A stretch of DNA of 32,200 nucleotides from Romboutsia sp. Lineage in GTDB: Bacteria; Bacillota; Clostridia; Peptostreptococcales; Peptostreptococcaceae. The DNA is taken from positions 1 through 32,200 of the forward strand of contig JAGHEK010000015.1 of the NCBI GenBank assembly GCA_017889265.1, written 5' to 3'. Numbering within the stretch: position 1 is the stretch's first letter; every line of letters starts with the position of its first letter. The translations under genes were made by a program, and so were the position numbers. Below are positions 4,741 to 32,200 of the stretch, in pieces. The notes under the pieces were generated by a model. The model did not search any database. It was not told where the DNA came from and saw only the letters and a program-made list of their open reading frames with translations.

Positions 4741-4767
4741 TTAGCACTCTTTTTTTTAGAGTGCTAA
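4741..4767. promoter_or_regulatory. CIRCE operator
   Basis: TTAGCACTC, nine T/A bases, then GAGTGCTAA: an exact match to the 9-9-9 CIRCE consensus bound by HrcA. It lies 20 bases upstream of the hrcA ATG and just downstream of the promoter at 4783-4810, over the expected start of transcription. Confidence 0.97.
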
Positions 4768-12225: not shown

Positions 12226-13238
12226 ACGTATTCACTTATAAACATATCTATTGCTATTTCATCCTTCATAATGTTTCGTTTAATTTTATACTCATAATCT
12301 AATATAGAATTTAACATTCTTATAATTTCTTCATACGAAAAATATTTACCTTGTTTAATAGCCTTGGATATAACGAACAACGGCTTGTTCAATTTATCTT
12401 TTATATATTCATTCGATTTTCCTTCTTTTACTAATAACTTTGTTTGTATAATTAGTTTTAAATTATTAGAAATCATAGAAAATACATAAGATACAGATTG
12501 CCCTTCGTCTAATATGTCATTTAAAATCTTAAGTGATTCCTTAGCTTTTTTTTGAGATATAAAATCTATTAATTTAAATATATCATTTTCTACTTTTTTT
12601 ACTAATAGCTTATCTATTATATAGTTACTTACCTTTTTATCCTTGTCTATAAAAGAACCTATTTTGTTTATTTCATTTTCCAAATCATTTAAAGTTTTTT
12701 TACTATACCTATCTAAATATCCTGTTTGTTGTATGAAATAAGCTATCTGTGCATTTTCTATAATAGCTCCATTTAAATCAAATTTTTTTCTAACCCATTT
12801 ATATAAATCTATTTCAGATAGTTTATCACAATCGCAAACTATACCTTCTTTTTTTATCATCTTTAATAATTTGCTATCTTTGTTTATATCAGAATTAATA
12901 AAAACTAAAACACTACTTTCTGGTATACTTTTTATATATTCGATAAACTCATTTTCTTTAGCTTCACTAATACTAGAATTTTTTAATAAATCAAATTCTT
13001 TTACTATAACAACTTTTTTATCATCCATAAACGGAACGGTTTCTACTGAATTTCTTATAGTATCTAAGTTAACTTGAATTTCTAAAATATCTAAATTAAA
13101 ATCTATCATATCTTTATTTAAAATATCTTTAAAAGATTTTATAGCATTATCTATTAGTATGTTTTCTCGCCCATAAAAAAGATATATTTTTTCTAGATTT
13201 TTAGATTTTATGTTCTTTATAATATCCTTGTAAATCAT
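12216..13238 (-). CDS. holA: DNA polymerase III subunit delta
   Basis: Clamp-loader subunit that opens the sliding clamp. The 340 residues show the delta N-terminal AAA-like domain (KIYLFYGRENILIDNAI; VETVPFMDDKKVVIVKEF) and the helical C-terminal collar domain. The ATG at 13238 has GGGGAG 8 bases upstream and lies inside the end of the comEC gene, so the two overlap by 38 bases and are probably translationally coupled. comEC-holA adjacency is the conserved Firmicutes order. Confidence 0.95.
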   Translation of the reverse strand: MIYKDIIKNIKSKNLEKIYLFYGRENILIDNAIKSFKDILNKDMIDFNLDILEIQVNLDTIRNSVETVPFMDDKKVVIVKEFDLLKNSSISEAKENEFIEYIKSIPESSVLVFINSDINKDSKLLKMIKKEGIVCDCDKLSEIDLYKWVRKKFDLNGAIIENAQIAYFIQQTGYLDRYSKKTLNDLENEINKIGSFIDKDKKVSNYIIDKLLVKKVENDIFKLIDFISQKKAKESLKILNDILDEGQSVSYVFSMISNNLKLIIQTKLLVKEGKSNEYIKDKLNKPLFVISKAIKQGKYFSYEEIIRMLNSILDYEYKIKRNIMKDEIAIDMFISEYVKK

Positions 13239-14436
13239 TTTTTTGCTCCCCTAACGTCTTAAATTCTTTATAAATCATATATGTAAATACTCCTATATAA
13301 TAAACTAAAACATAAATAAAGCTAGTATTTTCAAATTCTATGTAAGAAAAAGTTAAATTACTTATTTTATCTAGTAAAAAATAAATAAAATCTATTATAA
13401 CTCTATTTATAAAAACCAAAATTTTATAAAAATAAATATTAAAATTAAACAAAATAATACTAAAAATCGATAAATAAATAATAATTCCTATAAAAGGTAC
13501 TACAACAAGATTTCCAAGTAAAGAAACCGTAGATATCGACTTAAAATTATAATAAACAATCGGCAATGTTAAAATATTAGCAGATATACTGACACTTAAA
13601 AATGAATTTTTTAAATATTTGTTTACATATCTATAAAAATATATTATAGATAAAGTAGCCATAAAAGACAATTGAAAACTAATATTATATATTGTATAGG
13701 AATTGTTTAAAATAAATAAACTAGCCAAAAAACATAAATTAGATATGCCATCATTTTTTCTGTCTATAAAATATGAAGTATAAAATAAAATCATAAAACC
13801 TATTGCTCTTAAAATAGAATATGATACCCCTACCATAACAGTATAAATACCAAGTATTAGTATAACTATAAATAATTTATAAAACGTATTTATTTTAGAT
13901 GTAAAAAATACTATAAACGAACAAATTATACTTATATGAAGTCCAGACAATGCTATTATATGACTTGTTCCTGTGTTTGAAAACATATCTATTTCATCTT
14001 GTGATAATTCACTTTTTAATCCTAAAACTAAAGAATTTATAAAATTAGAGTCATCTTTATATAAATATCTTATATTTTCTTTTATAGTTGAAGATATTTT
14101 TCCAATATTATAATAAAATAAATTCTTATCAACAACTTTATAATCATAGATATCAACTAAAGCATTATACCCACAACTTTTTATATATCTATCTAATTTT
14201 TTAACTTTAGCTTTCGTGTTTAATACTATCCCTACATCAAAATCCAAGCCTTTTGTATAATCTCTAAACAGATAGTTTCCTATTACGTATTCATCATAAT
14301 CATCTTTTTCTTTTTTATGTTTAATAATGCCTTGTATCTGTATATTAGTTTTATTAATAAAATCTTCTTGGTCTTTAATATTTAAAAAAGATATGAAAAA
14401 CACAAAAATAAATATAAAAAACAAAGGTCTTCTCAT
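13201..14436 (-). CDS. comEC: ComEC/Rec2-family competence protein, channel part only
   Basis: Membrane channel for single-stranded DNA uptake. The 411 residues have an N-terminal membrane helix (about 5-20), an extracytoplasmic OB-like domain (about 25-120) and the multi-helix competence domain. The domain has the signature GTSHIIALSGLHISII and the ISFQLSFMATLSIIYFY stretch, then more hydrophobic helices to the end. The C-terminal metallo-beta-lactamase domain of full-length ComEC is absent: the frame ends in YYKEHKI and holA follows directly. A separate protein at 16701-17528 looks like that missing domain. AAGGAG precedes the ATG. No frameshift is visible at the 3' end, since the overlap with holA is natural. 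Confidence 0.9.
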   Translation of the reverse strand: MRRPLFFIFIFVFFISFLNIKDQEDFINKTNIQIQGIIKHKKEKDDYDEYVIGNYLFRDYTKGLDFDVGIVLNTKAKVKKLDRYIKSCGYNALVDIYDYKVVDKNLFYYNIGKISSTIKENIRYLYKDDSNFINSLVLGLKSELSQDEIDMFSNTGTSHIIALSGLHISIICSFIVFFTSKINTFYKLFIVILILGIYTVMVGVSYSILRAIGFMILFYTSYFIDRKNDGISNLCFLASLFILNNSYTIYNISFQLSFMATLSIIYFYRYVNKYLKNSFLSVSISANILTLPIVYYNFKSISTVSLLGNLVVVPFIGIIIYLSIFSIILFNFNIYFYKILVFINRVIIDFIYFLLDKISNLTFSYIEFENTSFIYVLVYYIGVFTYMIYKEFKTLGEQKNDLQGYYKEHKI

Positions 14437-16700: not shown

Positions 16701-17528
16701 TTGAAAAAACTAAGTATTTTAATAATAATTGTATTTTTAGTAGGTTGCCAAAAAAATGATAATTTATCAGTTCATATAATAGATGTAGGTCAAGGAGATA
16801 GTATACTGATAAAAACTTTAACTAAAAATATACTGATAGATGGTGGAGACGAAAAAAGTGATAAAATAGTATCTAATTACCTAAAGAAAAATAAAGTAAA
16901 AAATATAGACATATTAATAGCATCTCACCTCGATTCAGACCATATAGGTGGACTTGATAATATAATAGATAAGTTTAATGTTTCAAATGTATATGCTCCA
17001 AATCAAAAATTAGATACTTTATCATATGCTAATTTTATAAACTCATGTAATAATAAAAATATAAAAATAAATTTTCTCAAAAAGGATGATTTCTTAGAAA
17101 TTGAAGATAATATAAATTTACAAATATTATCGCCTTCGTTCATAAGTGATGATAATAACAAAAATTCAATAGTGTGTAAATTAAATTTTAAAAATAAGTC
17201 ATTTTTATTTACTGGAGATATAGAAAAAGAAAACGAAATAGATATTATCAATTCATTCGATTTAGATGATATAGATTTTTTAAAAGTAGCTCATCACGGT
17301 AGTTCTTCATCTAGCCATGAAAATTTTATATTAAATACTTCTCCAGATATAGCTGTGATATCCTGCGGATATAAAAATAAGTATAATCACCCTCATAAAT
17401 CAACATTAGATACTTTAAATAAGCATAATGTACTCACTTATAGAACTGATTTAATGGGTGATATAGTATTTTATAGTGATGGAGATAAAATTTATACTAA
17501 AAAAGATTATCAAAAAGCAGTAGAATAA
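16701..17528 (+). CDS. Lipoprotein with ComEC C-terminal-type metallo-beta-lactamase domain
   Basis: Predicted exported metal-dependent hydrolase, probably a nuclease, of 275 residues. A lipobox (LVGC, Cys16) predicts a lipid anchor on the outer face of the membrane. The MBL core resembles the C-terminal domain of ComEC/Rec2: VHIIDVGQGDSILI, ILIDGG, SHLDSDHIGG (metal-binding HxDxDH), LFTGDIE, VAHHGSSSSS and PHKSTLDTL. In ComEC this domain is thought to degrade the non-transported DNA strand. Here it is encoded separately, 2.3 kb from a ComEC that lacks it. The start is TTG, with AGGAGAG 8 bases upstream, and it has its own promoter. It could instead be an independent hydrolase of the same family. 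Confidence 0.85.
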   Translation: MKKLSILIIIVFLVGCQKNDNLSVHIIDVGQGDSILIKTLTKNILIDGGDEKSDKIVSNYLKKNKVKNIDILIASHLDSDHIGGLDNIIDKFNVSNVYAPNQKLDTLSYANFINSCNNKNIKINFLKKDDFLEIEDNINLQILSPSFISDDNNKNSIVCKLNFKNKSFLFTGDIEKENEIDIINSFDLDDIDFLKVAHHGSSSSSHENFILNTSPDIAVISCGYKNKYNHPHKSTLDTLNKHNVLTYRTDLMGDIVFYSDGDKIYTKKDYQKAVE

Positions 17529-19176: not shown

Positions 19177-19273
19177 TGGCGGGAATGCGTGGGAATCGAA
19201 CCCACCCAAGGAGCTATTAACCCCTCATACTAGTTTTGAAGACTAGAGGGCACACCAGAACCCATCCACTCCC
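19177..19273 (-). tRNA. selC: tRNA-Sec (anticodon TCA)
   Basis: 97 bases including an encoded CCA. The anticodon arm is CTAGT-CTTCAAA-ACTAG with anticodon TCA, which reads UGA. The T arm is GTGGG-TTCGATT-CCCAC. A long variable arm of 6 bp follows the anticodon arm (GAGGGG with CTCCTT). An 8+5 acceptor/T-arm layout, as in other bacterial tRNA-Sec, can be drawn, with discriminator G and GGGAGTG pairing with CATTCCC. The eighth acceptor pair would be a G-G mismatch and the D stem has only four clear pairs. It is charged with serine and converted by SelA using selenophosphate from SelD, then delivered by SelB. Confidence 0.96.
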
Positions 19274-21126: not shown

Positions 21127-23004
21127 TTAATTTTCGTTTAAAACCCGTATATTTTCTATTCTTTTGGTTATATTATTTCTATCTAAGTTCTCAAGGATTA
21201 TAACACAATTTTTTCTACTTGCCCCAGTTAGATCTCTTAAATTAGCCAATGTTATTTCTTTATTTTCTTTTAAGTAATTTATAATTTTATTTTTAGTTTC
21301 CTCATAAGTTTCTTTATCTATTATATATAAATCATCCAGTTTTATTAAAGTTTTACCTATCATATATTCAACTACTTCTTTATAGTAATTATTTTCATTT
21401 AGTTCATTTATGCTAGGTATATTCTTTATACCAGATTCTCTAACTTTACTTAATACTATATTCTCTATTTCCTTTTGTTTTTGATTTAAAATCACATCAA
21501 AATCGTATAAAGCCACCATTTTATCGATTATTTTTATAACTTTTTGATTAGCTAGTATATCAATTAATATATCAAATTCTTTATTATTGAAATCTTTCAG
21601 CTTAGATTTTAGTTCTTCTTTTTTGATACCTAATTTTAATCTATTTTTTTTATGATAGTCATAAAGTATTTTTTTAATATCATCTTTTAAATTCTCAAAA
21701 GATATTTTGTGGATATAACTACTATTTAGTTTGACTATTCTATTTTGATTTATAAGATTTTCTATTTCCAAAAGTATATTTTCTTTAGTTTCTCCCGTAT
21801 ATTTTAAAATATCTTCAATGCTAGAATTAGAATTTTTCAAAATAAATTCATCTATAATTATTTTTAAATCTCCGTTTTCTTTTCTTTTTAATTCATCTAT
21901 TATATTTTTATCAAATCTTTTATGCTTTTTATAAGATACATCGATTATAACACCTCCACCTATGGTAAACATAGGCGAATATGTTCTTATTACAAAAGGA
22001 TCTTTATTTTTGACTACTATACTTTCTTCAAGCCTTAATTGTGCAAAACAATTTTCTCCACTTTTTAAGACTTCTTTTTCTAAAAGAACTACTCTGCATA
22101 AAATTTCTCTAGTTCCGTGGTATAATTTAAGTCTGTCCCAACTTTTAAGTTCTTTTTTTAGATTATCAACTAAAGAAAGTTTTACATCAAGCATCATAGC
22201 TTCTTTCACAGAATTATTTTTAGCTAAAACATCTCCTCTTTTTATATCATCAACTTTTAAATTCGATATATTTATGGCAGTTCTTTGACCTGCATAAGCA
22301 CAATTTACATTCTCTCCGTGCACTTGAATATTTCTAATCTTCGCTAATTTATTACTCGGATACAAAAACAGTTCATCATCAATTTCTATTTTACCTTCAA
22401 GTAAAGTGCCTGTTACTATAGTTCCAAAACCTTTAAGTGAAAAAACTCTGTCCACATTTAATCTAGCAGGTAAATTTTCATCTTTAGATGTAGTATTTTC
22501 AGTTAAAAAATCTATCTTTGAAACTAAAGTATCAATTCCTTTTTTAGTTATAGAATCAACTTCAATTATCTCACAATTTTTTATAAAAGAATTTTTAAGT
22601 CTTTTATTTATATCATCTTTTACCATTTCTTTAAATTCAAAATCAACACTATCACATTTAGTTAAAACTATTAGTGAATTTTTTACATTCAAGAAAGATA
22701 AAATATCCATATGTTCAGTAGTCTGAGGCATAATCCCTTCTGTTGCAGATATAACTAAAAGTAAAATATCTATGCTAGATGCACCAGCTAACATATTTTT
22801 AATAAACTTCTCGTGTCCTGGAACATCTACTATACCTGCTCTTTTTCCACTTGGTAAATCAAAATAAGTAAAACCTAAATCTATTGAAATACCTCTTTTT
22901 TTCTCTTCTTTTAAAGTGTCTGTATCTCTACCAGTCAAAGCCTTTATAAGAGTTGTTTTTCCGTGGTCTATATGACCTGCTGTTCCTATTATTATATTTT
23001 TCAA
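21127..23004 (-). CDS. selB: Selenocysteine-specific elongation factor SelB
   Basis: Translational GTPase that carries Sec-tRNA to the ribosome at UGA codons marked by a SECIS hairpin. The 625 residues have EF-Tu-like GTPase motifs [29 protein letters not shown] and LTKCDSVD, beta-barrel domains, and C-terminal winged-helix repeats that bind SECIS RNA. The start is TTG at 23004: AGAGG lies 8 bases upstream, and TTG overlaps the selA stop as TTGA. An in-frame GTG at 23013 overlaps the binding site and is rejected. It is translationally coupled to selA. Confidence 0.96.
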
Positions 23005-24389
23005 GATAGACACCTCTTTAATTCTTCATATATTAAATCAAATTCATCTTCAAATATAGTTCTAACGTCTAATATATATTTTTCATCTTTTATTCTTCCT
23101 ATTATATGAGACTTAGAAAGTCTTAATTTTTTTTCTAAACTAGAAACACTAATTTTTTTAGGTATTATCTCTATAACTTTAGAATCTATAAACTCAAGAG
23201 GCATAGACCCTCCACCAACTTGAGATTTTGAATCACTTATTTTTATATCAAAATCTTTTAAATCTTTTATTTTATCGTATAAGCCAACAGCTTTTTTTTC
23301 TAATTCTTGAATACTATAAGTAAGCATTCTTAATGTTGGTATATTTTTTATAGCATTTTCTTCGTATAGATACATTCTCAAAGTAGCTTCTAGTGCACAA
23401 ATAGTTAACTTATCCACTCTTAAAGCTCTGGTTAACTGATTTTTTTTCATTTTTTGTATGTACTCTTTTTTACCTACTATTATACCTGCCTGAACTCCAC
23501 CAAGCAGTTTATCCCCACTAAAAGTAACTATATCTACTCCGTTTTTTAATGAATCAAGTACAGTTGGTTCATAAGATAGCCCATATTTAGATAAATCAAT
23601 AAATACACCACTTCCTAAGTCCTCAATAAGTGGTACATTATACTTTTTAGAAAGATTACTTAATTTATCTACCTCAACACTTTCGGTAAAACCTAGTATT
23701 TTGTAGTTACTAGTATGAACCTTCATAATAGCCCCTGTATTTTCGTTTATACTTTCCTCATAATCCTTTAAATGAGTTTTATTAGTAGAACCTACTTCAT
23801 TTAATTTAGCACCACTAAGCTCCATTATACTTGGAATTCTAAAAGAACCCCCAACCTCAACAAGTTCTCCACGAGATACTATAACTTCTTTTTCTTTAGC
23901 TAAAGTATTTAAAGAAAGTAAAACTGCACTTGCATTGTTATTTACTACTAAAACATCTTCTGCACCAGTTAATCTTTTTATAATATCTGTTAAATGAGTA
24001 TATCTAGAACCCCTCTCACCATTTTCTATATCATATTCTAAATTTGAATATCTAGTTGCAATAGAAAATAGATCGTCTTTTATTTGTTCACTAACTAAAG
24101 ACCTTCCTAAATTAGTATGAATTACTATCCCAGTTCCATTTATAACTTTCTTAAGAGACAAACTGTACTTTAACTTAACTTTATATATCACATCATTTAC
24201 TATACTTTCTATATTTATATCCAAGTATTTATTAGAATTTATTATTTTTCTTCTATTTAACTCTATAACTTCTCGAATAGTTTCTAAAACTATACTTCTT
24301 GGATAAAAATTCAATGTATTTTTTATCTCATCTTTAGATAAAACCTCATCAACAGAAGGTAATTTCCTAAAAAGTTCTTTTTTATCCAC
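23001..24389 (-). CDS. selA: L-seryl-tRNA(Sec) selenium transferase SelA
   Basis: PLP enzyme that converts Ser-tRNA-Sec to Sec-tRNA-Sec with selenophosphate. The 462 residues are full length. Seen: [26 protein letters not shown] and the PLP lysine in [10 protein letters not shown] (Lys294, equal to Lys295 of the E. coli enzyme). The start is GTG at 24389, with AAAGGAG six bases upstream. It lies 11 bases after selD and overlaps selB. Confidence 0.97.
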
Positions 24390-24400
24390 TATAAGCTCCT

Positions 24401-25429
24401 TTACAATACTTCTATATATTTTTCTTTTTTACTAACTACACTTCCTATTATCTTAGCTTCAATAGAACCATTTTCTTTCATAGATTTTACTAAAGAATCT
24501 GCTAAGTCACTACTTACAGAAACCAATAATCCACCTGAAGTTTGTGGGTCATATAATATATCCTCTATTTCAGATTTTATATTGTTTATCTTTACATCTT
24601 TTGATATATACTCTCTATTTTTATACATACCTGCAGGTATGATACCCATACTAGCCATCTGTATAGCTCCTTCTAAAATAGGAACATCTTTTGAATTTAT
24701 CTTAATAGATACATCAGAGGCTTTTGCCATTTCAAGAGCATGTCCTAAAAGTCCAAATCCAGTTATATCTGTTACTGAATTTACACTTATTGTTTCAAAA
24801 CTTTTAGCAGCATACTTATTAAGATGAACCATACATTCTATAACTTTATCTTTTATATCATCTGAAACTAAATCTTCTTTCATAGCGGTATTTAATATTC
24901 CAACTCCAATTGGTTTAGTTAAAACTAGCTTATCTCCAACTTTAGCATTTGCATTAGATAAAACTTTATTTGGATTAACAAACCCAGAAACAGATAAGCC
25001 ATATTTAGGTTCCTTGTCATCAATAGTATGACCACCTACTAACATAGCTCCACTTTCTTTTACCTTATCAAATCCACCTCTTAATATTTCTCCCAAAACG
25101 TTCATATCATAGCAAGATGGAAAACAAACTATATTCATTGCTAAAGTAGGATTCCCTCCCATAGCATAAACATCTGATAAAGCATTAGATGCAGATATTT
25201 GACCAAAAATATAAGGATCATCTACCATAGGAGTAAAAAAATCTAATGTTTGAATAAGTGCTATATCTTCATTTATTTTATAAACAGCAGCATCATCTGA
25301 TGTTTCAAGCCCAACTAATAAATTATTGTTTTCTATATTTTTAGGAAGTTTTGATAAAACATCTGCCAGAACCTCTGGACCAATTTTAGATGCTCAGCCT
25401 CCTGATGTAGTCATATGTGTTAACTTCAT
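24401..25429 (-). CDS. selD: Selenide, water dikinase SelD, a selenoprotein with in-frame UGA
   Basis: Makes selenophosphate from selenide and ATP, the selenium donor for SelA. Read from ATG 25429 (AAGGAG 7 bases upstream), the protein is 342 residues: [11 protein letters not shown], then UGA at codon 12 (25394-25396), then [13 protein letters not shown]. This is the SelD active-site position normally Cys or Sec, so UGA is Sec. The reading frame continues without break through [39 protein letters not shown] and [15 protein letters not shown] to [12 protein letters not shown]. Calling the gene from the first Met after the UGA (25228) would remove the catalytic loop. It heads selD-selA-selB. 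Confidence 0.97.
25360..25396 (-). promoter_or_regulatory. Bacterial SECIS element in selD
   Basis: Directly after the UGA, the mRNA folds into a lower stem CAUCU with AGAUG, and an upper stem CCAGA with UCUGG closing on a GGU loop (25366-25378). A GG-containing apical loop about 20 bases from the UGA is what SelB recognises in known bacterial SECIS hairpins. Confidence 0.85.
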
Positions 25430-25462
25430 AATATCACTCCTTTTTAAATATAATAACACAAT

Positions 25463-26026
25463 TTATACATCTATATGATTTTTTATTTCATCGTATTTTT
25501 TCTCTCCTATACCATTTACATTTTGAATTTCTTCAATAGATAAAAATTCTCCATTTTCTTCTCTATGACTTATAATTTTATTTGCAGTTGACTCTCCTAC
25601 CCCAGGTAAAGAATCCAATTCCTCAACACTTGCAGTGTTTATATTTATTTTATCGTTATTTTCATCTTTTTTTGTTTCTTGATTTTGTATATTTTCACCT
25701 ACTTTAGGAATAACATAATGCTTTTCATCTTCTAATTTAATTGCAAGATTAATATTATTTAAATCTGCATCTGCAGTAGTTCCTCCAACTAAATTTACTG
25801 CATCCCAAAGCCTTTTATCACTATCTAAAGTAACTACACCTGGATTTAATACTTCGCCACTAATAAAAATTGTAACAGTTTTTTTATTATCTAATGTATC
25901 ATTAGTAGTTATAACGACTTCATTTACATTTTCTTCTTCGCTAACAATATACATATCATCATTATTTTCAAAAAATTTATATCCTCCTATAGACAATAAT
26001 ATCATCAAAAAGATAATTATTTTCAT
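25463..26026 (-). CDS. comEA: ComEA-like DNA-binding competence protein
   Basis: Membrane-anchored receptor for double-stranded DNA in uptake. The 187 residues include an N-terminal membrane anchor (about 1-17), a SLBB domain (about 48-110; VTIFISGEVLNPGVVTLDSD, LWDAVNLVGG), a polar linker, and a C-terminal helix-hairpin-helix pair (about 125-187; KININTASVEELDSLPGVG, IQNVNGIGEKKYDEIKNHI). GGAGG precedes the ATG. selD follows 33 bases later, so the gene may be cotranscribed with the selenium genes. Divergent from the carboxypeptidase gene across 72 bases. Confidence 0.93.
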   Translation of the reverse strand: MKIIIFLMILLSIGGYKFFENNDDMYIVSEEENVNEVVITTNDTLDNKKTVTIFISGEVLNPGVVTLDSDKRLWDAVNLVGGTTADADLNNINLAIKLEDEKHYVIPKVGENIQNQETKKDENNDKININTASVEELDSLPGVGESTANKIISHREENGEFLSIEEIQNVNGIGEKKYDEIKNHIDV

Positions 26027-26098
26027 TTTATACCTCCTTTATTTTAATTATTAACAAAAATATGTTATACTAAAATATAACTTTTTAAGGAGGTTAGT

Positions 26099-27460
26099 AT
26101 GATGAAAAAAGTGTTATCTATTTTTCTTATAATAGTAAGTGCTATATCTATTTTTATAGGCAATATAACATATTCATTTGCAGACAATCTACCTACAATA
26201 TCGGCACCTTATGCAGTTTTAATGGATTATGAAACTGGTCAAGTATTATACGAAAAAAACGGAGATCAAAGAGTATATCCAGCATCTACAACCAAAATGT
26301 GGACGGCATATGTAGTACTTAAGCACGTAGATGATTTAAGTCAAAGAATTCGTATAGAAAACTTAGAACCTATAGATGGAACTAGTATGTATCTTCAAAA
26401 CGGAGAATCTTTTACAGTAAAAGAACTTTTACAGGGTCTTATGATAACTTCTGCTAATGATGCAGCAGTAGTTCTTGCAAGATTTGTTAGTGGAAATGAA
26501 CAAGAATTTGCTAATCTTATGAACGAAGAAGCAAAAAAAATCGGAGCAAAAAATACTCACTTTAATAATCCAAATGGTCTTCCAGATGAAAACCATTATA
26601 CTACTGCTTACGATATGGCACTAATGTCAAGAGAGGCTATGAGTAATGAAACATTTAGAGAAATAGTAAGCCAAGAAAGAGTATTTTTTAAACAAGATGA
26701 AACTACATTTGTTGCTAGAGATTTTGTAAATACTAATAAGTTTATATCTGGTACATCAAACGAAAAAATGATGTATAATAATCAACTTATAGATATAAAA
26801 TATCCCATAGTAGACGGTATAAAAACAGGATTTACTAATGATGCGGGTAAATGCCTTTTAAGTAGTGCTCTTAAAAACGATATGAGACTTATAAGTGCAG
26901 TTTTTAAAACCACAGGAAATACTAATATGTATATAGATTCTAGAACTTTACTAGATTACGGTTTTAATAATTTTAAATCGACTACCATAGTACAAAAAGA
27001 AGAATATTCAAATAGTAAAAAAGTATTTTTTTCTAAGCAAAAAACTCTAAACTATGAGCCAAAAAGTGGATACAAACTAGTTTTACCTAAAGATGAGAAA
27101 GTAGAACAATACTCAGTAAAAGAAATTTTAAAAGATATAAATCTTCCAATAAAAAAAGGTGACGTCGTAGGTTCTTTGGAAGTATATAAAAACAACGAAT
27201 TGGAAAGTACAATAGATTTAATAGCAACTAATGATGTAGAAAGTATATTGCCATTTTTTAATAAAAATGTACTATTAAGCATAGTAAAAATACTTTTAGT
27301 ATTAATACTACTAATACCTATTAGTCTTATATTATTAAAAAAATATTTAAATCGATATAGAAAAAATAAAAGAAATAGATTCTATCGAAATAATAAAAAC
27401 ATATATATAAATAAAAAAAGTAAAAATATAAACTTTAAAAATAACAGAAGGTATAAGTAA
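26099..27460 (+). CDS. D-alanyl-D-alanine carboxypeptidase (DacF-like, S11 family)
   Basis: Trims the terminal D-Ala from peptidoglycan stem peptides outside the cell. The 453 residues have a signal peptide (about 1-28), the serine active site PASTTKMW (Ser63, Lys66), SAN at 118-120 and KTG at 242-244. These three motifs are the penicillin-binding-protein set. The PBP5-type C-terminal beta domain is followed by a membrane helix (about 408-430) and a very basic tail rich in Lys, Arg, Asn and Tyr. AAGGAGG precedes two adjacent ATGs (26099, 26102). It is monocistronic and convergent with the MBL gene. Confidence 0.94.
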   Translation: MMKKVLSIFLIIVSAISIFIGNITYSFADNLPTISAPYAVLMDYETGQVLYEKNGDQRVYPASTTKMWTAYVVLKHVDDLSQRIRIENLEPIDGTSMYLQNGESFTVKELLQGLMITSANDAAVVLARFVSGNEQEFANLMNEEAKKIGAKNTHFNNPNGLPDENHYTTAYDMALMSREAMSNETFREIVSQERVFFKQDETTFVARDFVNTNKFISGTSNEKMMYNNQLIDIKYPIVDGIKTGFTNDAGKCLLSSALKNDMRLISAVFKTTGNTNMYIDSRTLLDYGFNNFKSTTIVQKEEYSNSKKVFFSKQKTLNYEPKSGYKLVLPKDEKVEQYSVKEILKDINLPIKKGDVVGSLEVYKNNELESTIDLIATNDVESILPFFNKNVLLSIVKILLVLILLIPISLILLKKYLNRYRKNKRNRFYRNNKNIYINKKSKNINFKNNRRYK

Positions 27461-27462
27461 AA

Positions 27463-27487
27463 GGTGCTCATTAGCACCATTTTTTTA
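27463..27487. terminator. Bidirectional terminator between the carboxypeptidase and MBL genes
   Basis: GGTGCT (27463-27468) pairs with AGCACC (27473-27478) around CATT, followed by seven T residues on the plus strand and TTTT on the minus strand. The stop of the minus-strand gene (27471-27473) falls in the loop. Confidence 0.85.
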
Positions 27488-29345
27488 TACCTTCTCCATG
27501 AATAAATATTAAATTTTTAGGTTTTATTATATCTATAACTTTATTAAGTTCTAAGTAATTTGCATGAAATGGTATGCTTATATTTATAAAATTTATTTTA
27601 ATAGTGTCAAATGGCTTTATTTTATTTTCATAAGTTTCCTTATCTAAAAATCCACTAATTATAACTGTGACCATTTTTTTGTCTTTTAATGACAAATCGT
27701 AATACTTTTCAGAGATACTACCATCATTTAAAGAACCGCCACTAGCTATTATAATATTATTTTTACAATATTTTTCGTACAAACTATATTCAATATCATC
27801 ACTTTTATCTAATAAATTATAGTATATAGATATATTTTTGGCTATCCCGTCTACTAAAATATCTCCTTTTATTGTACTATTTCTTATTAAGTTATGAGTT
27901 TCTTGAGCCTTTCCTATTGCAGATGAAGGCAAGAGTACTTTTATATTATTTTTTATAGACAAATCTATAAAATAAGTAATTAATTTTTTCTTATATTCAA
28001 ATGGAATTTCTATATTCTTATTTCCATAAGTAGACTCCATAATTAAATAATCGATAGCCTTATACTTTTTAAAAAAATTTTCATTTATATATGTGCTAGT
28101 AATATTTTTATTAAAAGAAAAATCGCTAGTATGAAGTAACTTTTTGCCGTTAAACTTTATAAAAACCCCTACTGATCCCTTTATATGATTACTTGGAAAA
28201 AACTCTATATTTATTTTCCCTATATTAAAACTATCATTTTCTTTTTTTAATATTATTTTATTACTATCTGTTATATAATCTTTATTTATTATATTTATAA
28301 TTTCATAAGTATCTTTAGTCATAAATATTTTGTTAGCATAAGGGGTTATAACGTCCATACTACCGTAATGGTCTAAATGAGCATGAGTTATTATAAGACA
28401 TTTTATACTGTTTATATCTAAATTATTTCTTATAAAAAAATCAACTACGTCTATCTTAGACTTATCCTTTGATAAAACCTTACAACCACAGTCAATAACT
28501 ATTATATCTTCATCTATTTTTATTATATGCATACTAACCATAGATTTAGATTTATAACTTATAATTTCTATATGCTCATCACAAAAATCATATTTACAAA
28601 CACTTTCTGGCATATAGTAATTTTTAGTTTTAAAATCAATTATATCAATAAGCGCTTTACCTATATGATGATTTATATTATCACAAGGTAACATATAAGT
28701 ATAATCCTCATCATTTTCTAATTTCATTTTATATATATTATGTATTTGATATAAATCCAATTGTTTTAATATGTCCAAAACATCTTCTATATAATTTTTA
28801 AAATCATCGTTATTTTTTATTGACTTCTTTCTTTCTAATATTATACCTATCAATATATAAATATATTTAAGTTTTAAATCTTTTATATTTTCTATAATAT
28901 TAAAGTCATCAATCAATACCATTGGTATCTTAAAATAAATAAGTATATCTATAAAATCATTTATATCAACTTTATTTGAATTTATAATTTCTATTATTTT
29001 TTCTTTATTATTTTCATACAAAAATTCTGCTTTTTCATACAACCTAAGATTAAGTAAAGATAATATGGCATATACTATTCCTACACTATTTTTATTTAAT
29101 AAAAAACATTCTTTACCATAATAATACGAAAGTAAATACTCTTTTTTTCTATATTTAGTATAAGACAATAATTCAAAAAATATCTTTTTCCCAAGTTGTA
29201 TATAAGAAACATTTTCTATAAAACAATCAATTTTATCAATTTCTTGAAAATCATATTTTTTTATATCTTCTATATGTAGCAAAATATCTTCTTCTATATT
29301 TTCTATCTCTTTTTTAGTGAACAAATTATCATTATACTTATACAT
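27471..29345 (-). CDS. MBL-fold/beta-CASP nuclease-like protein with helical N-terminal domain
   Basis: Predicted metal-dependent nuclease of 624 residues. Residues 1 to about 245 are alpha-helical with TPR-like character and match nothing I recognise. The rest carries every MBL motif: VIDCG (Asp285), THAHLDH (320-326), SNH (His387) and HTSDF (Asp408). The beta-CASP motifs are MESTYG (Glu437), IPFHANYLEL (His594) and FIHGE (His615). This set is that of RNase J/CPSF-73-type enzymes, so RNA or DNA cleavage is plausible. No export signal. The ATG is 1 base after the stop of the solenoid gene (TAATATG) with no good binding site, so translation likely depends on that gene. Third gene of the Hsp70 operon. 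Confidence 0.85.
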   Translation of the reverse strand: MYKYNDNLFTKKEIENIEEDILLHIEDIKKYDFQEIDKIDCFIENVSYIQLGKKIFFELLSYTKYRKKEYLLSYYYGKECFLLNKNSVGIVYAILSLLNLRLYEKAEFLYENNKEKIIEIINSNKVDINDFIDILIYFKIPMVLIDDFNIIENIKDLKLKYIYILIGIILERKKSIKNNDDFKNYIEDVLDILKQLDLYQIHNIYKMKLENDEDYTYMLPCDNINHHIGKALIDIIDFKTKNYYMPESVCKYDFCDEHIEIISYKSKSMVSMHIIKIDEDIIVIDCGCKVLSKDKSKIDVVDFFIRNNLDINSIKCLIITHAHLDHYGSMDVITPYANKIFMTKDTYEIINIINKDYITDSNKIILKKENDSFNIGKINIEFFPSNHIKGSVGVFIKFNGKKLLHTSDFSFNKNITSTYINENFFKKYKAIDYLIMESTYGNKNIEIPFEYKKKLITYFIDLSIKNNIKVLLPSSAIGKAQETHNLIRNSTIKGDILVDGIAKNISIYYNLLDKSDDIEYSLYEKYCKNNIIIASGGSLNDGSISEKYYDLSLKDKKMVTVIISGFLDKETYENKIKPFDTIKINFINISIPFHANYLELNKVIDIIKPKNLIFIHGEGIKKWC

Positions 29346-29346
29346 A

Positions 29347-30936
29347 TTACTTTGGAGGGTCTACCTTTAGTCTTTTTAATATCATAGTAGACTTCGATTT
29401 TAATTCTTTTTTGCAGAACTTACTTTCAATAATAAAAAATAATATATCTATAAACTCATCTTTATTTTTATCATCTAAAAGTCTATCCACTAAATTTAAA
29501 ACTGCTAAATAAACATGCTCACTACATTTTGCTTTATTATTATCATAAATACCAAGTAAATTTTTTATCTTAGGTATTATTATATCCCTAAAATTAAACT
29601 TCGGTTGATTACACATTTCATACGAACTATTTATAGCCTTTATAATCTTTTCATCATCAAAACTAGTTAAATACTCATTATAAACTATATTTACTGATTT
29701 TTTTAATAGTTTGCTACTTTTATATGAACAATCTCTTATTATAGAAAATATTTTTCTGTGATTATAACATCTTTGTTCTATATATTCTCTTATAAGTTGT
29801 TTAGTTTCTTCTTCTTTTCCTATACTACACATAGATGCATAACAATATATTTTTTTATCATCATCATATTTATATCTATCTATAATATTGTAAAATTTTT
29901 CACTTATTCCTATACGACTTCCCCATTGAGCTAAAGTTATCAGAGCCGTTCCTATTTCTATTGAATTACACTCGTACTTATCAATAGCATTTATAAGCAT
30001 TTCTTCAACATAAGGATAATTCGAATATCTTATCGCTAAAAATGCATCTTTTCTAGTATCAAAATTATCAATCCAAAGATTAAAACATTCCTCAAAATCT
30101 TCTTCATATCTCCAATTCTTAGCTTTTTTTATCATAGTATTTAATGTAGTTTTTTCCACCTTAGAAACATTAGGTAATGCCCTACTTATTACTTTTTTTG
30201 CTTGATAATTTATATTTTCTTTTTGTAGATATTCTTCTAGTTTTATAATTCCTAAATCACCAAAGCTATTTATATAATTATTTATAAAAAATTTACCCAT
30301 TTCAACTTCCATACTATCTTGTTCTTTGATAGTTGAAATAAGCGATAAAGTGTACTCTATACATACTTCATTTTTTACACTCATAAAAGATTTTAAAGCA
30401 TATATTTTATTATCATTTTTTGTATGATAATCATTTATTACTTTTAATAAATCTAAATCTTTTATTTTTGAACAAGCATTTATAATTATCATTATTTGAT
30501 TACTAAAAGTCCATTCTCTAAGAATAAACTCTATAGTTTCTTTATATTCTAAAGGTTTTTTCATATATATTTCATATATTATATTCGATATTTTTTTTGT
30601 TATTATATTTTCCGTACAAATTAAATTATTTATAATTTTTGATGCATAAAGTATAGCTTCTATTGGACAAGTATCCCTATTTATCATACTATTTGATATA
30701 AGATTTACTTCTCTTTCAAATTTATTTAAATCATATTTTTCTGACTCAAAATTTTCGCTAAAGCATCTACATAAACTTTTTATATCTTTTGATAAAAACT
30801 TCCAATAAAAAAGTCTATTATTATATACACTATTACTTTCTCCCCCGACTTCACTTACTTCATCTATATTATTAATTTTATAATTAGTTATGCTGTCTTT
30901 ATATAATTCTAAATCCTCTAAACTTCTTAACTTCAA
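29347..30936 (-). CDS. Alpha-solenoid (HEAT-like) protein, unknown
   Basis: A 529-residue product that I do not recognise. It appears all-helical, with repeated helix pairs of about 30-40 residues through most of its length, as in HEAT or Armadillo solenoids. No catalytic motif, signal peptide or membrane helix is seen. The start is TTG at 30936, with AGGGGTGG just upstream, 10 bases after the Hsp70 stop. It is sandwiched between an Hsp70 and a nuclease-like protein, so a scaffold role linking the two is inferred. Confidence 0.75.
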   Translation of the reverse strand: MKLRSLEDLELYKDSITNYKINNIDEVSEVGGESNSVYNNRLFYWKFLSKDIKSLCRCFSENFESEKYDLNKFEREVNLISNSMINRDTCPIEAILYASKIINNLICTENIITKKISNIIYEIYMKKPLEYKETIEFILREWTFSNQIMIIINACSKIKDLDLLKVINDYHTKNDNKIYALKSFMSVKNEVCIEYTLSLISTIKEQDSMEVEMGKFFINNYINSFGDLGIIKLEEYLQKENINYQAKKVISRALPNVSKVEKTTLNTMIKKAKNWRYEEDFEECFNLWIDNFDTRKDAFLAIRYSNYPYVEEMLINAIDKYECNSIEIGTALITLAQWGSRIGISEKFYNIIDRYKYDDDKKIYCYASMCSIGKEEETKQLIREYIEQRCYNHRKIFSIIRDCSYKSSKLLKKSVNIVYNEYLTSFDDEKIIKAINSSYEMCNQPKFNFRDIIIPKIKNLLGIYDNNKAKCSEHVYLAVLNLVDRLLDDKNKDEFIDILFFIIESKFCKKELKSKSTMILKRLKVDPPK

Positions 30937-30946
30937 AATACCACCC

Positions 30947-32200
30947 CTAAAAACTTTCTTTTAGCATAACTTCTTGTCTTAGTTCTATCTTTTCCCCGTC
31001 AACATCAACAAAAAGCTTTAAATATTTATCTTTATCTATTGAAAAATCTATATCAATTAAAGTTCCTGGCTTTTTAGGTTTTGAAAAATATGCTTTATAT
31101 TTTCTTTGTATCCTCATTTTTGAATCAAACTCATCTATTCCTGCATATAAATTTAATTCAACACCTGAAGGGCTAGTAGTTTTTAATATCCCCTTTAATT
31201 TACCTTCACAAGGTACTTTTTGATTAGAACTTATTATAGTAATTGGTAATCCTTCTTTTACATCTATCATTATAGCTTCTGCTAAAACTTTAGTTAGATG
31301 AAAACTTTTTTTAGTATCAACTTTATTTAAAGTAGTTTCATAATAATCATATATAGCAGCCCCTTTTGCAACAGAACTTAGTGGGTCTTGAGAAGTTATT
31401 ATATTTTCCTTATCTATATCTAATATATAACTTATCTCATCAACTATTTTTTTATATTTAGTCATACCTCCAGTTAAAAATAAATAATCTATACTATTTT
31501 TATCTATATTGTAATCATTTAAAATATTCATTATGGGGTCAACGATATTTTTATTTAATTTTTCATCAAGTACCCTATTAGTCTTTTCACTTCCTACGAA
31601 AAAACTGCTTATTATTTCATCATACTCATCTTTATTTATCGAAAACATATATGGCTTATTATCATAAAAATCCATTATATAATGGTCAAAACTTTCACCA
31701 AAATAACAATTCATTTCTATATCTGATGATATTCTTTCCTTTGCTTTTTCTGCAAAAATCCTAAGATGTCTAATCATATTTTCTCTAGTTTCTTTATCTA
31801 TTGTGTTGTAGTCTAGATTATTTTTTTGCAAAAACTCATTTAACTTGTATAATGCTACTTTATTATCAAAATCTATTCCACCAAGCTCATCGTATCTTCC
31901 TATTGCTATTTCTGTAAACTCTAGTTTTCTATCTTTTTGTAATACATCAACTATCGCTATATCACAAGTTCCTCCACCTAAATCAAATACCATTATTCTA
32001 GTATTTTCACTAAAATCAACACTTCTTTGATATTCAATTAAATTCGCCTGTTCATTTATAAAATCAATAAGTGCCGAAGTTGGTTCTGGAATTAAATTAA
32101 CATTTTTGAAACCGATTTCCATTGCTGCATCTTTGGTATCCTTTATTTGGTCGGTATTAAAAGATGCTGGAACTGTTATAGTTACATTTTCAACTTCTTT
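30947..32200 (-). CDS. Divergent Hsp70 protein without lid, 5' end beyond the window
   Basis: 417 residues are visible; the frame is open to the window edge, so the first part of the ATPase domain (including the phosphate-1 loop) is outside. The visible part begins KEVENVTITVPASFNTDQ, the Hsp70 VPAYF region. It continues with [28 protein letters not shown] (phosphate 2) and LFLTGGMTKYKKIVDEI (adenosine motif), then a beta domain of about 120 residues ending in RQEVMLKESF. The helical lid and acidic tail of DnaK are missing. The first Met in view (32122) is internal and not a start. It is first in view of a three-gene operon with the solenoid and MBL genes, separate from the true dnaK. Confidence 0.9.
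   Translation of the reverse strand, partial: KEVENVTITVPASFNTDQIKDTKDAAMEIGFKNVNLIPEPTSALIDFINEQANLIEYQRSVDFSENTRIMVFDLGGGTCDIAIVDVLQKDRKLEFTEIAIGRYDELGGIDFDNKVALYKLNEFLQKNNLDYNTIDKETRENMIRHLRIFAEKAKERISSDIEMNCYFGESFDHYIMDFYDNKPYMFSINKDEYDEIISSFFVGSEKTNRVLDEKLNKNIVDPIMNILNDYNIDKNSIDYLFLTGGMTKYKKIVDEISYILDIDKENIITSQDPLSSVAKGAAIYDYYETTLNKVDTKKSFHLTKVLAEAIMIDVKEGLPITIISSNQKVPCEGKLKGILKTTSPSGVELNLYAGIDEFDSKMRIQRKYKAYFSKPKKPGTLIDIDFSIDKDKYLKLFVDVDGEKIELRQEVMLKESF

Follow-up and report, generated by a model that had tools for sequence, protein, structure and literature searches.

A few conflict systems are predicted to include an Hsp70 chaperone, but to our knowledge none has a single operon that joins an intact Hsp70 ATPase to an exchange factor of its own and to a nuclease of the CPSF73 type. 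A putative set of this kind is described here from Romboutsia sp. (NCBI GenBank assembly GCA_017889265.1), where it runs over the end of contig JAGHEK010000015.1, a stretch of 32,200 nucleotides referred to below as the window. Its products are a GrpE-like protein, a lidless Hsp70, a HEAT-type solenoid and a nuclease-like protein of the metallo-beta-lactamase (MBL)/beta-CASP type, and on balance we lean, by a small measure, towards reading them as a four-component chaperone-gated nuclease module.

Relation to described systems

CoCoNuTs comprise an McrB GTPase (CnuB) and McrC (CnuC), together with HEPN RNases and an Hsp70 that carries a degenerate Walker A-like motif (PMC11090510). In type III CoCoNuTs, CnuD combines Hsp70 nucleotide-binding and substrate-binding domains (NBD and SBD) with HEAT-like repeats and coiled coils, RNA targeting is predicted, and the systems are associated with restriction (PMC11090510). 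A second group, the conflict systems centred on GAP1-N2 GTPases, brings HSP70 and GrpE together with FNIII, DnaJ and TPR proteins (PMC7159879).

The present operon resembles the CoCoNuTs in its Hsp70-like NBD and SBD, HEAT-like repeats, coiled coils, predicted RNA nuclease and link to restriction systems, but differs from them in its intact ATPase residues, its MBL/beta-CASP nuclease and its GrpE-like protein. Because the defining NxD McrB GTPase (CnuB) and McrC are missing from it, it cannot be classed as a CoCoNuT. As in the GAP1-N2 systems, which are predicted to act in conflict, an Hsp70 stands in one operon with an exchange factor, here a probable GrpE-like protein, and the chaperone would be a threshold switch; membership was rejected because no GTPase is found among the module genes. 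The likeness to DnaK–GrpE lies in the Hsp70 ATPase core, the beta-type SBD (SBD-beta) and the adjoining, probably GrpE-like exchange factor. The module departs from that machine in lacking a lid, a DnaJ gene in the operon and CIRCE control, in its diverged interdomain linker, and in having a nuclease and a solenoid of its own. The nuclease, finally, has the same MBL/beta-CASP catalytic core and motifs as CPSF73, aCPSF1 (FttA), INTS11 and Cas14, its nearest solved structures, but is preceded by a helical N-terminal extension rather than accompanied by KH domains or Cas7 partners, and its operon partners are chaperone parts.

PADLOC 2.0.0 holds no family for the MBL protein, the solenoid or the truncated Hsp70 of the window, and gave weak partial matches only for their Priestia homologues. 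The literature yielded no description of the gene set, most subscription papers and all bioRxiv-only preprints being outside the search. The initial annotation of the window, which knew of no described system with an Hsp70, a solenoid and an MBL/beta-CASP protein, is in line with both searches.

Four genes in one operon

Minus-strand open reading frames (ORFs) fill positions 27471–32200 of the window, itself one whole contig (C122) of a 1.45 Mb genome in 128 contigs. The nuclease-like protein (624 residues) is encoded at 27471–29345 and the solenoid (529 residues) at 29347–30936, and the Hsp70 gene, at 30947–32200, is still open where the window ends; the two intergenic gaps measure 1 and 10 bases. 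The last 127 bases of the window are the first 127 of another contig, C35, and this join supplies Hsp70 residues 1–122 as well as an upstream gene for a protein of 351 residues. In the coordinates of the C35 stretch (L009), the remainder of the Hsp70 gene occupies 2–493, reaching 366 bases beyond the window and giving a full protein of 539 residues, and the fourth gene, for a coiled coil followed by a GrpE-like C-terminal domain, lies at 498–1553, separated from Hsp70 by a 4-base gap; both are on the minus strand. Further upstream on C35 are ridA and leuS. The join is supported by relatives that have these four genes consecutively in single contigs. The operon has four genes, which encode in turn a GrpE-like protein, a lidless Hsp70, a solenoid of HEAT type and an MBL/beta-CASP nuclease of CPSF73 type. 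Strand and gap lengths agree with the initial annotation, which had counted three genes and had proposed extending the contig past 32200, the step that brought both the start of Hsp70 and the fourth gene to light.

The operon ends at a short, bidirectional terminator-like hairpin (27463–27478; GGTGCTCATTAGCACC) located between the nuclease gene and the convergent dacB. Its G+C-rich stem of 6 pairs is followed by a T-rich tail on both strands, and shuffled sequences contained a mean of 0.0 such sites. The hairpin had been called a strong terminator, a generous term for a 6-bp stem. No Rfam family matched anywhere in window positions 23000–32200.

A lidless Hsp70 with an intact ATPase core

The assignment to Hsp70 (PF00012, 1.4e-30) bears out the initial reading of an Hsp70-type ATPase. 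Its profile can be aligned with DnaK up to about residue 511, the point at which the protein ends after SBD-beta, and the alpha-helical lid is absent, as the description ‘lidless’ had implied. The equivalents of D8, T11, T12, K70, E171, D194 and T199 are invariant in all 21 module Hsp70s compared, and the actin-like ATPase core is intact as judged by these catalytic residues. The linker LLLLDVTP of DnaK has not been retained in the same 21 proteins, the alignment being less certain in this region. Since the intact ATPase comes without a lid and without the standard linker, a role as a general foldase is unlikely; a dedicated exchange factor and solenoid point instead to a switch with one specific binding partner.

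A predicted nuclease of the CPSF73 branch

The MBL match begins at residue 270, which leaves an N-terminal extension of about 250 residues, close to the 245 helical residues first annotated. Ten motif residues (D285, H321, H323, D325, H326, H387, D408, E437, H594 and H616) are invariant in nine of nine distant homologues, so that the MBL/beta-CASP motifs are conserved from Peptostreptococcaceae out to the most distant relatives, and the earlier statement that all seven metal motifs are present is upheld. In a profile search of the PDB, the best scores were those of CPSF73 (2.4e-46) and Cas14 of type VII CRISPR (2.9e-46), with INTS11 and aCPSF1/FttA also near. RNase J, to which the protein had been compared, reached 1.3e-20 at best, and an identity as RNase J was rejected on this account. 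A separate and weaker MBL match on contig C84 (1.0e-19) is, from its score and length, likely to be the RNase J of this genome. Identity with Cas14 itself was also set aside, as the operon has no cas genes and the protein scores 73 bits with NF045584 against a cut-off of 800; its other NCBIfam score is also far under its cut-off (83 against 580). An MBL profile scan of the class returned only the window's own copy and one stand-alone CPSF-type protein.

With motifs 1–4 and A–C intact, the protein is best placed, by sequence, in the CPSF73 branch, and its substrate would be RNA. Members of this branch (CPSF73, INTS11, FttA and Cas14) usually cut RNA within a complex that gates the nuclease.

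The HEAT-type solenoid and a probable GrpE-like protein

The solenoid protein of the window has no match in Pfam, NCBIfam or PADLOC. Its homologues match HEAT_2 (8e-13 and 2e-17), its predicted structure is all-helical with 27 helices (predicted local distance difference test, pLDDT, 81.7), and a Foldseek search with this model gave ARM/HEAT proteins as nearest, if weak, neighbours. Homologues and model together identify it as a HEAT-repeat-type protein. It had been annotated as a helical repeat protein with no known motif, which holds for the protein itself, both in the helical model and in the missing family match, but not for its relatives.

The fourth protein likewise matches no Pfam or other family. 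A global profile alignment of its C-terminal 125 residues to 23 GrpE sequences starts where the coiled coil stops, reaches the last beta strand and scores 20.5; the highest control scores were 9.3 among 200 column shuffles and 7.6 among 66 decoy segments. Comparisons using one or two GrpE sequences were not significant, the signal appearing only with the 23 sequences in global mode. The AlphaFold model is poor (pLDDT 53), which makes the Foldseek result from it meaningless. From the profile comparison, the fourth protein is likely to be GrpE-like.

A conserved unit in distant genomes

Among 71 genomes of the family Peptostreptococcaceae, the solenoid occurs in nine, which belong to 4 of the 23 genera; the Hsp70 is present in these nine and no others, the remaining 62 having neither. 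The nine are interrelated and do not count as independent events. They include Romboutsia sedimentorum, R. lituseburensis, Clostridium sp. CCUG 7971, Faecalimicrobium dakarense and Peptostreptococcaceae VA2, and they share the order GrpE-like–Hsp70–HEAT–MBL, apart from one congener that has no first gene. A search of 398 genomes of the phylum with an Hsp70 profile revealed nine further carriers. Two genomes of one other genus, g375 (G638 and G776), and a third from elsewhere (G624) carry all four genes in the Peptostreptococcaceae order, while in the family f155 the order is MBL–Hsp70–HEAT, followed by two other conserved genes. A wider Hsp70 profile search at 1e-50 added nothing beyond DnaK background. 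Searches of plasmids by tblastn located the order MBL–GrpE-like–Hsp70–HEAT twice, on pNCT2_2 of Priestia megaterium and in a record that bears the name Klebsiella grimontii; these operons were found with the Hsp70 and MBL queries from G624, the window solenoid as query giving none.

The 21 module Hsp70s that were tested group in a single clade with support 1.0, and DnaK and other Hsp70s fall outside it. The four genes are a real conserved unit of common origin. The initial annotation had taken non-adjacency in relatives as grounds for giving up the idea; the set, partly reordered, stands together in distant Bacillota genomes.

Three observations concern particular copies. In the Klebsiella grimontii record, pNY3A, the 30-kb stretch L104 (CP079755.1, 162826–192486) has 30–37% GC throughout and Bacillus-like genes, and may be Bacillaceae DNA present through contamination, mislabelling or recent cross-phylum transfer. 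In four f155 loci (L111, L112, L114 and L116), some of them in single-contig genomes, single Hsp70, HEAT or coiled-coil genes are split into two ORFs, probably through gene decay, with draft or sequencing errors as the other explanation. The coiled-coil gene X321 of f155 and a 281-residue Priestia gene are similar at the level of coiled coils only, and homology between them is not claimed. Elsewhere, a plasmid of Nostoc sp. UHCC 0302 carries an uncharacterised chaperone cluster (L128, 3218–9220) in the order TPR–DnaJ–GrpE–Hsp70–TPR, a different Hsp70 operon with no MBL or nuclease gene, which was not counted as a member.

Genomic neighbourhoods

In Peptostreptococcaceae the module occupies a single fixed site between ilvA/ridA/sda and dacB-comEA-selDAB, which is not defence-linked, and in f155 its site is constant in the genomes examined and is not a defence island. 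Elsewhere it is patchy, being present in 2 of 12 g375 genomes and in 1 of 63 genomes of the class to which G624 belongs. In G638 it is flanked by a HerA annotated as ‘type III coevolved’, a kinase, Csx1/Csm6, type III-A csm genes with cas10, and CRISPR arrays; in G776 it lies between CRISPR arrays and adjoins type I-B cas genes. The outer flanks of these two loci are alike only in repeats and short elements. Directly upstream of the G624 copy are two BrxD-like ATPases, the sole PF10923 genes in that genome. On the Priestia plasmid, the module is directly followed by a HAD/phosphoribosyltransferase gene and a DprA-like ShosA gene (5.2e-73), which by sequence read as a Shosta pair, and GmrSD and Mrr are nearby; the second plasmid record has HNH, a McrB-like AAA protein and McrC, with McrBC several kb from the module. 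Every patchy or plasmid copy thus has defence neighbours. CRISPR arrays may be frequent in the genus g375, and the association with defence is strong in kind and small in number.

BrxC/BrxD-like ATPases also occur in pairs or triples in 11 of the 63 genomes of G624's class (L120–L124 among them), mostly without the Hsp70 module.

Proposed function and alternatives

In the mechanism that we propose, the Hsp70 would bind a nascent complex or a ligand that is aberrant or foreign, the HEAT protein serving as its adaptor and the GrpE-like protein exchanging its nucleotide. By switching between ATP and ADP it would either keep the beta-CASP nuclease inactive within an assembly or free it, and the trigger that tips the three chaperone components could be an invader or a faulty RNA or protein. 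Once freed, the nuclease would cut RNA (DNA being less likely), and its action would limit the invader or shut the cell down. The physical complex, the direction of control, the RNA substrate and the antiviral role are all inferred. The idea in the initial annotation, that the Hsp70 and solenoid may hold, sense or license the nuclease in a module triggered by stress or an invader, is borne out in part, by the conserved unit, the intact ATPase and nuclease motifs and the defence-type surroundings of patchy and plasmid copies; control of the nuclease by the Hsp70 and the proposed triggers are conjectural. The more specific reading, an undescribed immune system in which this dedicated Hsp70 machine detects a product of the invader and activates an RNA nuclease of the CPSF73 type, is a serious possibility to which we nevertheless give somewhat less than an even chance. 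The operon is a good candidate for a new device that acts against viruses or controls RNA. If the proposal is true, protein-folding machinery would be tied directly to RNA destruction, and cultured Romboutsia and the Priestia plasmid would offer a simple genetic system for studying how chaperones sense infection or faulty RNA.

A number of results weigh against a chaperone-gated module of defence. The fixed chromosomal site, with core or metabolic neighbours in most or all members of this lineage and of f155, suits a resident function, and the defence contexts were seen at only a handful of loci, with no null distribution. Neither the solenoid nor the Priestia MBL query had a relative among viral contigs, the solenoid query found none among phage records, and E. 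coli genomes gave no match by DNA. The Priestia Hsp70 query matched phage proteins at 27–36% identity, the level of ordinary Hsp70/DnaK. As for the fourth component, its GrpE-like match is invisible to Pfam and weak in local profile comparison (p 0.05, with 4 of 200 shuffles reaching the score), and the gene is not obligatory, since one congener lacks it and none was detected in four f155 genomes.

The alternative that survives best is housekeeping, in RNA quality control or stress adaptation, where an Hsp70–GrpE–HEAT machine would hand faulty ribonucleoproteins or stalled transcripts to a beta-CASP RNase, and the defence neighbourhoods would arise from plasmids and islands rich in accessory genes. 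It gains support from the constancy of the site in two lineages, a site that in Peptostreptococcaceae runs from ridA/sda/ilvA to dacB/selDAB, and is also consistent with the intact ORFs and the mean Hsp70 identity of 75% in that family. The caution in the initial annotation that core neighbours allow a housekeeping role is fair for this lineage, in which the site is fixed and all sampled genomes of four genera carry the module. The module is nonetheless absent from 19 of the 23 genera of the same family, as well as from most genomes of the two other groups sampled, and it occurs on plasmids; the split ORFs of several f155 genomes suggest dispensability, draft errors being possible. There is also no sign of membership in the HrcA/CIRCE heat-shock regulon: no CIRCE box was found within 5 mismatches at the start of the operon or of its relatives' operons, and the same search returned, as a positive control, a perfect CIRCE (0 mismatches) at window 4741–4767, just upstream of hrcA-grpE-dnaK-dnaJ. 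Given the patchiness, the plasmids, the neighbours, the probable gene decay in f155 (with the same caveat) and the missing CIRCE box, a defence role is more likely than a housekeeping one, which we consider rather unlikely.

A nuclease directed at DNA is improbable. Here the MBL protein, loaded by Hsp70 and HEAT, would attack invading or damaged DNA in the manner of SNM1/Artemis or the ligase-associated exonuclease, in keeping with weak matches of the window protein to DRMBL (0.034) and Xnuc_lig_assoc (2.8e-12) and with DNA restriction genes nearby on the plasmids. The motif B and C histidines and the RMMBL match seen in relatives fit the RNA-acting CPSF73 branch instead, and in the PDB search DCLRE1A (7e-12) and Artemis (5e-9) fall far behind the E-values of about 1e-46 for CPSF73 and Cas14. 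That the genes are chance neighbours with unrelated roles, each singly falling in a broad superfamily, is scarcely credible when the set is adjacent, with re-ordering, in several separate lineages, co-occurs exactly over 71 genomes and contains a single Hsp70 clade.

Other features of the window

The selD gene (24401–25459, minus strand) contains a single in-frame TGA at the apparent SelD active-site position; reading it as selenocysteine extends the frame, the plain ORF call starting too late, and selD is thus itself a selenoprotein gene. The same window holds a tRNA-Sec gene (19177–19273) and selA/selB. A comEA-like HHH/SLBB gene lies at 25463–26026, and ComEC is apparently split into two genes, 13201–14436 and 16701–17528, one for the membrane competence domain and one for an MBL domain standing alone.

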